A DNA stretch of 64,000 bases. Source: Kribbella caucasensis. GTDB lineage: Bacteria > Actinomycetota > Actinomycetes > Propionibacteriales > Kribbellaceae. The notes beneath the pieces were generated by a model that was not told where the DNA came from, did no database searches, and was given only the letters and a program-made list of their open reading frames with translations. The first letter of the stretch is position 1. Each line of letters opens with the position of its first letter. Made by a program: the position numbers and the translations under genes. Below, piece after piece: positions 2,418 to 37,328 of this stretch. The stretch lies in contig NZ_SNWQ01000020.1 of NCBI RefSeq assembly GCF_004361855.1, positions 62,001 through 126,000 on the forward strand, in the 5' to 3' direction.

Positions 2418-3254
2418 ATGTCCGCACTAGCGATCGACTTCACCCAACCCTTCGAAGATGCCTTCGGCAAGCTCCTGGGCTTCGTCCCGAACCTGCTCGG
2501 TGGCCTGGTCATCCTGATCGTCGGCTACTTCGTCGCGAAAGTGCTCGGCAAACTCGTCGGCAAGCTGCTCGGCCGGGTCGGCTTCGACCAGTGGATGGAC
2601 CGGGCCGGCGTGTCCGGCGTGCTGCAGCGCTCCGGCACCGGGCTGACCGCGTCGGCGATGCTCGGCCAGGTCGTGTTCTGGTTCGTCTTCCTGATCAGCT
2701 TCACGATGTTCGCCTCCGCGCTCGGCGTGCCGGAGATCTCGGCCTTCATGAGCGACATGCTCGGTTACATCCCACGGATCTTCGCCGCGATCGTGATCAT
2801 CTGCCTGGCCGCGTTGTTCGCGAACTTCCTGGCCGCGATCATCCGCGGCGCGACCGGCAACGAGACCCTGGCCAAGGTCGGCAAGTACGCGGTTCTCGTG
2901 TACGCCGCGTTCGCCGCGCTGACCCAGCTCGGTATCGCGGTCCAGCTCACCGGCAACACGTTGCTGATCGTGCTCGGTGGTGTCGCCCTGGCGCTCGGTC
3001 TCGCTTTCGGCCTCGGGGGTCGCGAGCTGGCCGGCCAGGCACTCCGCACCATGTTCGAACGCGGCCAGTCGATGACGGCATCAGCCGGTACTGCGAACCA
3101 GGGCGCCAACGGCACGACTGACTACCCGGACCCGCAGTACCCGGACCCGCAGTACCCGGATCCGCAGTACCCGGCGACGCATGGCGCGCCGCAGTCGGGC
3201 AACTGGTCCAATGGCTCCGGCGACAACGGCAACTGGCAAGGCGGCCAGCGGTAG
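2418..3254 (+). CDS. Multi-helix membrane protein with conserved TM-helix repeat (MscS-like)
   Basis: 278 residues starting at the ATG at 2418 behind AAGGAAGG. At least five hydrophobic helices are visible: LLGGLVILIVGYFVAKVLGK, VVFWFVFLISFTMFASAL, IFAAIVIICLAALFANFLAA, YAVLVYAAFAALTQLG and LLIVLGGVALALGLAFGLGG. The spacing and the GLGG at the end of the last helix match proteins built from the conserved TM-helix repeat related to small mechanosensitive channels. The C-terminal 50 residues are polar and contain the tandem repeat YPDPQ. Function is probably channel-like or structural; this is inferred from the fold only. Confidence 0.75.
   Translation: MSALAIDFTQPFEDAFGKLLGFVPNLLGGLVILIVGYFVAKVLGKLVGKLLGRVGFDQWMDRAGVSGVLQRSGTGLTASAMLGQVVFWFVFLISFTMFASALGVPEISAFMSDMLGYIPRIFAAIVIICLAALFANFLAAIIRGATGNETLAKVGKYAVLVYAAFAALTQLGIAVQLTGNTLLIVLGGVALALGLAFGLGGRELAGQALRTMFERGQSMTASAGTANQGANGTTDYPDPQYPDPQYPDPQYPATHGAPQSGNWSNGSGDNGNWQGGQR
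3123..3172 (+). repeat. 15-bp in-frame tandem repeat encoding YPDPQ
   Basis: TACCCGGACCCGCAG occurs three times in a row (3123-3137, 3138-3152, 3153-3167; the third has one base change), followed by a partial copy. It encodes YPDPQ units in the cytoplasmic tail of the membrane protein. The near-identity implies recent slippage expansion. Confidence 0.85.
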
Positions 3255-3263
3255 TCATCAGCC

Positions 3264-3295
3264 CTCCTGCCGGAGTGGATCGCCTCCGGCAGGAG
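3264..3295. terminator. Bidirectional hairpin terminator
   Basis: Perfect 12-bp arms CTCCTGCCGGAG and CTCCGGCAGGAG enclose an 8-base loop. The hairpin lies between the convergent ends at 3254 and 3315 and can serve both. Confidence 0.75.
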
Positions 3296-3314
3296 CCCGC
3301 CTGTCCGGATGTTC

Positions 3315-3839
3315 CTAGCCGGCGTCCGGGCCTGCCCGGCGGACGTCGTCGACCTTCGACATCGCGTCGCGGAGGTCCTTGAGCCACGTCTCGCTGTGCT
3401 GGGCGACGAGCTTGACGCACCAGCCGAGCGCGTCGCTCCGGGAGCGGGCGACCCCGGCGTCGACCAGCGTGTCCAGCACCTGGCGTTCCGGCTGCCGCAA
3501 CCGCGTCATCACCGGCGCGGACAGCGACGTGAACACCGTCCGCGTCTCACCACAGTTGACGCCCCATGCGACCTTCCGCCGGGTGGCGTGCTCGAGCTCG
3601 CGGGCGATCTCGATCCGCCGCTCCCGGGTGTCCTCCCGGTACTGCTTGATCCGCCCCTCCTCGGCCGCCGACCGCGCCGCTTCGCTGACGTCACCCTCCT
3701 GCTGTGGCGCCGGGATCGTCCCGACGATGAGGATCTCGTCCCGGTCGATCGTCACCTCCGGCTCACCCTCGAACCACTCCTGCGGCAGCCGCCCCGTCAA
3801 CCAGCCCCGCACCCGCTCACTCTCCGCCTGTGTACTCAT
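3315..3839 (-). CDS. Uncharacterised protein with ribbon-helix-helix-like C-terminus
   Basis: 174 residues starting MSTQAESERV at an ATG at 3839. The N-terminal half contains alternating charged strands (EVTIDRDEILIVGTI). A highly charged helix rich in E, R and K follows (residues about 55-85). The C-terminus (VLDTLVDAGVARSRSDALGWCVKLV) resembles the helix-turn-helix portion of ribbon-helix-helix regulators, where SRSDAL is typical. I do not recognise the whole protein as a named family. A perfect 16-bp palindrome overlaps the first base of the start codon and there is no ribosome-binding site, so the mRNA is probably leaderless. If the C-terminus binds DNA, autoregulation is the simplest reading. 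Confidence 0.7.
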   Translation of the reverse strand: MSTQAESERVRGWLTGRLPQEWFEGEPEVTIDRDEILIVGTIPAPQQEGDVSEAARSAAEEGRIKQYREDTRERRIEIARELEHATRRKVAWGVNCGETRTVFTSLSAPVMTRLRQPERQVLDTLVDAGVARSRSDALGWCVKLVAQHSETWLKDLRDAMSKVDDVRRAGPDAG

Positions 3840-35630: not shown

Positions 35631-35638
35631 CTGTGGTG

Positions 35639-35775
35639 CTCATCCAGAGGGACTGAGGGAACGGCCCGTTGAAGTCCCGGCAACCCTCCCCGTGGAGGCC
35701 TCGCTCCGGAGGCGCTCGCGGCGGAAAGGTGCCAAATCCGTCCCGCGCCGAGATCCGGCGTCCGGGGAAGATGAG
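35639..35775 (+). promoter_or_regulatory. SAM-I riboswitch (S-box leader)
   Basis: P1 pairs CTCATC (35639-35644) with GATGAG (35770-35775). Inside are the conserved blocks CCAGAGGGACTGAGGGA, GCCCGTTGAAGTCCCGGCAA and AAAGGTGCCAAATCC in correct order, so the core, kink-turn and P3 junction of SAM-I are present. GTGCCAAATCC argues against SAM-IV. Immediately after, GGAGG (35775-35779) can pair with CCTCC (35783-35787) and hide the ribosome site. SAM binding should therefore reduce translation of the two genes downstream, making them part of the methionine regulon. Confidence 0.92.
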
Positions 35776-35787
35776 GAGGACACCTCC

Positions 35788-37056
35788 ATGAGCCTGACCG
35801 CTGCCCCTTCGACCCACACGATCCGTGAAGGTGCCTTCGGCAACGGTACGCACCTGAGCTGCCGCGCCTGTGGGGCGAAGTCGGAACTCGGTCCGTTCTA
35901 CGCCTGTATGGAGTGCTTCGGTCCGCTCGAGGTCGGGTACGAGTTCCCGGCCATCACCCGTGAGCAGATCGAGGCCGGCCCGAAGAACATCTGGCGCTAC
36001 CAGCCGCTGCTGCCCGTGCCCACCGACGTGGCCAGCTTCCCGAACACCGAACCCGGCTACACGCGACTGATCGACGCCGGCAACCTGGCCCGCGAGCTCG
36101 GTCTGCGCAAGCTCTGGGTGAAGGACGACTCCGGCAACCCGACCCACTCCTTCAAGGACCGCGTGGTCGCGTCCGCGCTGAGCGCCACCCGCGAGCTCGG
36201 CATGAAGGTCTTCGCCTGCCCGTCCACCGGCAACCTGGCCAACGCCGTCGCCGCCGCGGCCGCCCGGGCCGGCATCCGCTCGGTCGTCTTCATCCCGAAG
36301 GACCTCGAGCGTCCCAAGATCATCACCACCGCCGTGTACGGCGGCACTCTGGTCGCCGTCGACGGGAACTACGACGACGTGAACAAGCTCGCCTCCGAGA
36401 TCGCCGGCGAGGAGGACGGCTGGGCGTTCGTCAACGTCAACGTCCGCCCGTACTACTCCGAGGGCTCCAAGACACTCGCGTTCGAGATCGCCGAGCAGCT
36501 CGGCTGGCGGCTGCCGGAGCAGATCGTCATCCCGGTCGCCTCCGGTTCGCAGCTGACCAAGATCGACAAGGGTTTCACCGAGCTCGGCAAGCTCGGCCTG
36601 GTCGACGCCACCGAATACAAGGTGTACGGCGCACAGGCGACGGGGTGCTCCCCGGTCGCCCAGGCATTCCGCGACGGACATGACGTGGTGCAGCCGGTCA
36701 AGCCCGACACGATCGCCAAGTCGCTCGCGATCGGCAACCCGGCCGACGGCCCGTACGTGCTCGACGTGGCCCGGCGTACCGGTGGTGTGATCGCGGACGT
36801 CAGCGACGAAGAGGTCATCGAGGGCATCCAGTTGCTGGCCCGGACCGAGGGCATCTTCACCGAGACCGCAGGTGGGGTGACGGTCGCGACACTCAAGAAG
36901 CTGATCGAGACCGGGCAGCTCGACCCCGAGGCCGAGACGGTGATCATCAACTCCGGCGATGGGCTGAAGACGCTCGACGCCGTGGCCGACCGGGTCGGCC
37001 CCAAGGTGACCATCCCCGCGTCGTACGACGCCTTCGTGAAGGCAGGACTCCAGTGA
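35788..37056 (+). CDS. Threonine-synthase-like PLP enzyme under SAM control (possible homocysteine synthase)
   Basis: 422 residues. The N-terminus has a zinc-ribbon-like CRACG...YACMECFGPLE region. SGNPTHSFKDRVVASAL carries the PLP Lys (K123). CPSTGNLANAVAAAAARAG is the phosphate-binding loop. The fold is fold-type II threonine synthase (ThrC), which acts on O-phosphohomoserine. The SAM riboswitch and the overlapping MoaD-like gene suggest that it does not make threonine but replaces the phosphate with sulfur to make homocysteine. A reported Streptomyces route of this sort (I recall the names MetM and MetO) fits, but I could not check it. The start follows a GGAGG site that can be sequestered. 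Confidence 0.85.
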   Translation: MSLTAAPSTHTIREGAFGNGTHLSCRACGAKSELGPFYACMECFGPLEVGYEFPAITREQIEAGPKNIWRYQPLLPVPTDVASFPNTEPGYTRLIDAGNLARELGLRKLWVKDDSGNPTHSFKDRVVASALSATRELGMKVFACPSTGNLANAVAAAAARAGIRSVVFIPKDLERPKIITTAVYGGTLVAVDGNYDDVNKLASEIAGEEDGWAFVNVNVRPYYSEGSKTLAFEIAEQLGWRLPEQIVIPVASGSQLTKIDKGFTELGKLGLVDATEYKVYGAQATGCSPVAQAFRDGHDVVQPVKPDTIAKSLAIGNPADGPYVLDVARRTGGVIADVSDEEVIEGIQLLARTEGIFTETAGGVTVATLKKLIETGQLDPEAETVIINSGDGLKTLDAVADRVGPKVTIPASYDAFVKAGLQ

Positions 37057-37328
37057 GTGTCAGTGTTCGCGTCCCGACCATCCTGCGGCCCTACACCAAG
37101 GGCGCGTCCGAGGTGTCCGTCGAGGGCGCGACGCTGAGCGAGGTGCTGGAGTCGCTCGACACCTCGTTCCCGGGGATCAAGGGCCGGGTGCTGGACGATT
37201 CGGGCGAGTTGCGCCGGTTCGTCAACGTCTACGTGGACAACGACGACGTCCGGTTCACCGAGGGCCTGCAGACCAACATCAAGGACGGCGGCCAGGTCTC
37301 CATCATCCCGGCCGTCGCGGGCGGCTGA
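37053..37328 (+). CDS. MoaD/ThiS-like sulfur-carrier protein
   Basis: 91 residues from a GTG that shares 4 bases with the preceding TGA. It has the ubiquitin-like beta-grasp fold (VSVRVPTILRPYTKGASEVSVEGATLSEVLESL) and ends IIPAVAGG. The exposed C-terminal GG is the site for adenylation and thiocarboxylate formation. Similar proteins (CysO, MoaD, ThiS) hand sulfur to cysteine, molybdopterin or thiazole synthesis. Coupling to a ThrC-like enzyme and a SAM riboswitch points to homocysteine synthesis. The activating E1-like enzyme is not in the window. Confidence 0.88.
   Translation: MSVSVRVPTILRPYTKGASEVSVEGATLSEVLESLDTSFPGIKGRVLDDSGELRRFVNVYVDNDDVRFTEGLQTNIKDGGQVSIIPAVAGG

Follow-up and report, generated by a model that had tools for sequence, protein, structure and literature searches.

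In Streptomyces, the enzyme MetM reportedly makes homocysteine from O-phosphohomoserine with the thiocarboxylated form of MetO, and metO is said to lie downstream of metM. The Streptomyces report to which the preliminary description of our locus had referred does exist; it is Hasebe et al. 2024 (Appl Environ Microbiol 90:e01247-24, doi 10.1128/aem.01247-24), and PMC12172450 describes it as the report of the homocysteine synthase MetM and its partner MetO. In S. albulus, according to the same source, metM is preceded by a SAM riboswitch, and its neighbour metO codes for a sulfur carrier family protein. The accession given there for S. albulus MetM is BHXC01000007. A homologue from Microcystis (M. 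aeruginosa), called ThrC, yielded threonine and alpha-ketobutyrate in vitro (PMC12172450).

We analysed a 64,000-nt stretch of DNA from the soil actinobacterium Kribbella caucasensis, referred to below as the window. The locus consists of the following features.

35637..35777, + strand: complete SAM-I (S-box) riboswitch aptamer (cmscan, RF00162)
35770..35787, + strand: expression platform with the P1 3' strand, the Shine-Dalgarno (SD) sequence and CCUCC (from sequence)
35788..37056, + strand: metM-like gene for a ThrC-like fold-type II PLP enzyme, 422 aa (ORF, PF00291, TIGR00260)
37053..37328, + strand: metO-like gene for a MoaD/ThiS/CysO-type sulfur carrier, 91 aa (ORF, PF02597)

The aptamer scored 73.1 bits against RF00162 in a cmscan of the window (gathering threshold 44.4; E 3.2e-15) and is the sole SAM-I element in the 9.46-Mb genome. 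The preliminary description had stated that all the conserved SAM-I blocks are present, and the match indeed covers the complete model (positions 1-108); only the start of the element, given there as 35639, was 2 nt off from the cmscan start. It had also placed the end of P1 at the ribosome site, and we observed the same: the P1 3' strand GAUGAG (35770-35775) merges into the SD sequence GGAGG (35775-35779), which sits 8 nt ahead of the ATG at 35788. This placement of P1 relative to the SD suggests translational control. The downstream CCUCC (35783-35787) is able to pair with the SD, and a GGAGG-ACA-CCUCC hairpin is present in the MFE fold of the Kribbella leader; this hairpin is not kept as such across all the orthologue leaders. 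Thermodynamic folding of 40 leaders gave no P1-dependent difference in SD accessibility (mean unpaired fraction 0.28 with P1 vs 0.31 without P1, p 0.46). Neither the ribosome nor the tertiary structure that SAM stabilises enters this comparison, which therefore carries little weight for or against P1-dependent SD occlusion. Since the computed accessibility was independent of P1, we only infer the mechanism of switching.

The first gene had been described as carrying ThrC motifs, in agreement with the profile searches, in which its product showed the PALP fold (PF00291) and matched TIGR00260 (thrC) with 284.7 bits, compared to a cut-off of 167.1. The TIGR00260 model is unable to separate MetM from ThrC, nor would a predicted fold tell the two apart, and the nearest solved structures are also threonine synthases (6cgq, 2zsj, 1uim). 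The N-terminus of the enzyme bears a CxxC..CxxC zinc-ribbon-like motif that was found in 110/110 orthologues. In the tree, these orthologues group together and separately from ThrC (support 0.93), and 47 positions are fixed differently between the MetM orthologues and ThrC, several of them near R161 and N189 of ThrC. The closest named relatives are from Kribbella (93-96% identity). A record named Streptomyces sp. SID13031 (L032) has a 95% identical locus and seems to belong to a Kribbella relative under a wrong name. The product of 35788-37056 is predicted to be an O-phosphohomoserine-dependent homocysteine synthase.

The carrier gene starts with GTG and overlaps the enzyme gene by 4 nt (GTGA, 37053-37056), and its product has the C-terminus AVAGG with a free GG; both the overlap and the GG end were correctly noted in the preliminary description. 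The carrier matched PF02597 (ThiS family) with 58.3 bits and is 54% identical to the CysO of its own genome. Among solved structures, M. tuberculosis CysO (3dwg_C, E 8e-25) is the best match, with 4n6e in second place. A further CysO-like carrier (L029:1480-1770; 42% identity) ends in VAGG and has no obvious partner enzyme in the surrounding stretch.

Searching the whole genome, we found three other ThrC-like genes, whose products are 33-35% identical to the enzyme. One is the ThrC of a canonical hom-thrC-thrB operon (L003; Hom 193-1575, ThrC 1579-2643, ThrB 2643-3617), by which threonine synthesis is therefore provided for, and two are further ThrC-like genes. Another thrC, for which the preliminary description had proposed to search, is thus present, and the idea that the enzyme is the only thrC of the genome is ruled out by this operon. 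The genomic context of the enzyme is not that of a threonine synthase: it is neither beside hom or thrB nor the sole ThrC.

A lack of metX, metY and other homocysteine synthases had also been suggested, and this was borne out in large part. MetX (homoserine O-acetyltransferase) is absent from the genome (best match 26 bits, over a short segment), a MetA-type homoserine acyltransferase (MetA/HTS) gave no match in the genome, and none of its PF01053 proteins reached the cut-off for the MetY/MetZ sulfhydrylases. A qualification concerns one of them, L009, which is of the cystathionine gamma-synthase type (NF005871, 661.8 bits vs a cut-off of 513). As the genome has neither MetX nor MetA, L009 is left without an acyl-homoserine substrate. 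A methionine-gamma-lyase-like PF01053 gene split over two frames (L012/L013; G000 contig C1:529217-530378) is either a pseudogene or an assembly error. The genome also encodes a MoeZR-like, rhodanese-containing E1 (L112 1441-2631, contig C22) and a JAB peptidase-CysO-CysM operon (L026).

We searched one and the same set of 198 actinobacterial genomes (completeness >=95%) for the enzyme, MetX, canonical ThrC and SAM-I. An orthologue of the enzyme was present in 132 of the 198, and canonical ThrC in 193, including all the 132 with the enzyme. SAM-I was found in 136 genomes. It lies 8-318 nt upstream of the enzyme gene, on the same strand, in 132/132 cases (measured to where the protein alignment begins), and it occurs in only 4 of the 66 genomes without this gene. 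A scan with all the Rfam families likewise placed SAM-I upstream in 40/40 enzyme loci. Two of the four SAM-I elements in genomes without MetM (L166, L168) precede genes of ABC importers that include a periplasmic binding protein and are sulfonate/taurine-uptake-like. MetX was found in 126 genomes, a count that leaves out three weak matches; 63 genomes have both the enzyme and MetX, 69 the enzyme only, 63 MetX only and 3 neither (Fisher p 2e-12 for the anticorrelation, uncorrected for phylogeny). By tblastn, a carrier gene follows the enzyme gene in 78/89 loci, which is a lower bound, since the script overlooked a carrier in two or more of the remaining eleven. SAM-I and a MetM-like gene without an adjacent carrier were seen in L121, L154-L156, L159, L162 and L163; a cold-shock-like ORF follows the MetM-like gene in L121 and L159. 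As the riboswitch-enzyme-carrier arrangement is conserved across the class, it is not due to chance.

We consider it highly likely that metM and metO have their Kribbella orthologues in these two genes, and that the pair forms a SAM-controlled route to homocysteine from O-phosphohomoserine and a carrier thiocarboxylate. The preliminary description had favoured such a route, and as a prediction it is strongly supported by the genomics, namely by the separate ThrC, the lack of MetX, MetA and any PF01053 protein above a MetY/MetZ cut-off, the presence of the E1 and of the JAB-CysO-CysM operon as partner machinery, the co-occurrence with SAM-I throughout the class, the anticorrelation with MetX and the distinct clade of the orthologues. 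Counted against it are the name threonine synthase given to the enzyme by HMM libraries, the 63 genomes with both MetM and MetX, the continued presence of the cystathionine gamma-synthase-like L009, the products of the M. aeruginosa homologue in vitro and the lack of a P1 effect in the folding comparison.

The enzyme could instead be an ordinary second threonine synthase, regulated by SAM via the O-phosphohomoserine that it shares with methionine synthesis, with the carrier as an unrelated neighbour. The score above the TIGR00260 thrC cut-off and the assay of the Microcystis homologue as a threonine synthase/deaminase (PMC12172450) are in line with this. However, canonical ThrC is separately present in 132/132 genomes with the enzyme, SAM-I precedes every orthologue, a carrier is the neighbour in 78/89 loci, and MetX is distributed in a complementary manner; moreover, the S. 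albulus orthologue is reported as a homocysteine synthase. We therefore regard a second threonine synthase as very improbable. It is also very improbable that transsulfuration is the main route, with L009 accepting O-phosphohomoserine in the manner of plants and with a different sulfur-related role for the SAM-controlled pair, for example as an extra cysteine route. L009 does exceed the NF005871 cystathionine gamma-synthase cut-off, but the genome contains neither MetX nor MetA, it already has a JAB-CysO-CysM operon for cysteine, and regulation by SAM suits methionine rather than cysteine.

Synthesis of homocysteine from free sulfide, with the carrier serving another pathway or being only accessory, is unlikely, though less so than the other two alternatives. 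Several lineages with the enzyme and the riboswitch but no adjacent carrier (L154-L156, L159, L162-L163) point in this direction. Against it, most loci have the carrier next to the enzyme, and the two genes overlap here. Lineages that lack a neighbouring carrier could draw on one of the CysO type from another place in the genome, as is reported for Amycolatopsis (the 4n6e match).

In the thiocarboxylate route that we prefer, a rhodanese-bearing MoeZR would adenylate and then thiocarboxylate the C-terminal glycine of the carrier. The ThrC-like PLP enzyme would take O-phospho-L-homoserine supplied by ThrB, and elimination of phosphate would give a PLP-bound vinylglycine-type intermediate. Because of the homology and the reported chemistry of MetM, we infer that sulfur from the carrier thiocarboxylate would then be added at C-gamma, replacing the water used by ThrC. 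Homocysteine might be freed directly or after a Mec+-like JAB peptidase cleaves the carrier adduct, and would proceed to SAM via methionine synthase and MetK. Binding of SAM to the leader would stabilise P1 beside the ribosome site and turn the operon off. At this branch point, O-phosphohomoserine would be diverted from threonine synthesis, under feedback by SAM.

Not all the carriers have a free GG. Residues beyond GG occur in 28 of the 78 neighbouring carriers (for example L036, L039-L041, L044, L045 and L051), mostly a single Cys (VAGGC); the extension is exactly one Cys in 22 of the 28. Such residues would make trimming necessary before thiocarboxylation. Mec+ takes cysteine off CysO-Cys (PMC3227635), and a Mec+-like JAB peptidase is the obvious candidate for a trimmer of the GG-Cys carriers. 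We tentatively propose, at slightly less than even chances, that SAM-I in Actinomycetes is approximately a dedicated MetM switch co-inherited with its gene, and that many of the carriers are GG-Cys pro-forms trimmed by a Mec+-like JAB peptidase. If this is true, methionine synthesis would be tied to the cysteine carrier machinery.

In a survey of 2005, methionine operons of actinobacteria showed no RNA element (PMC1262725); a possible reason is that the regulated gene had not been identified as one for methionine. Genes that standard models annotate as threonine synthase are very probably homocysteine synthases in some two thirds of the Actinomycetes in our sample, and the MetM route would account for methionine synthesis in those of them without MetX.

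Among the known systems, one methionine route uses MetY and acyl-homoserine. Its sulfur donor is a carrier thiocarboxylate (route cited in PMC5764234 and PMC6225789), as predicted here; the Kribbella locus differs in its ThrC-like enzyme and in the predicted use of O-phosphohomoserine. The M. tuberculosis CysM/CysO/Mec+/MoeZR system (PMC3227635; 3dwg) similarly combines a fold-type II PLP enzyme with the thiocarboxylate of a MoaD-type carrier, but converts O-phosphoserine to cysteine, and the Kribbella genome holds a full CysO operon separate from the metM/metO-like pair. With ThrC (TIGR00260; 6cgq, 2zsj, 1uim), the enzyme shares the fold, the PLP motif PTxSFKDR and the predicted substrate, whereas it is only ~34% identical to the ThrC of its own genome, from which the 47 fixed differences and the extra N-terminal CxxC..CxxC also set it apart. 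The closest likeness is to S. albulus MetM/MetO, which, as described in PMC12172450, comprises a ThrC-like enzyme, an adjacent sulfur carrier and an upstream SAM riboswitch; the present locus differs in its genus, Kribbella, and its enzyme is about 61-67% identical to the class members L146-L150. As the same three parts occur in the same order, we place the Kribbella locus with MetM/MetO, its enzymatic step being predicted, and conclude that it is a well-supported further example of the route reported in 2024 and not a novel type of system.
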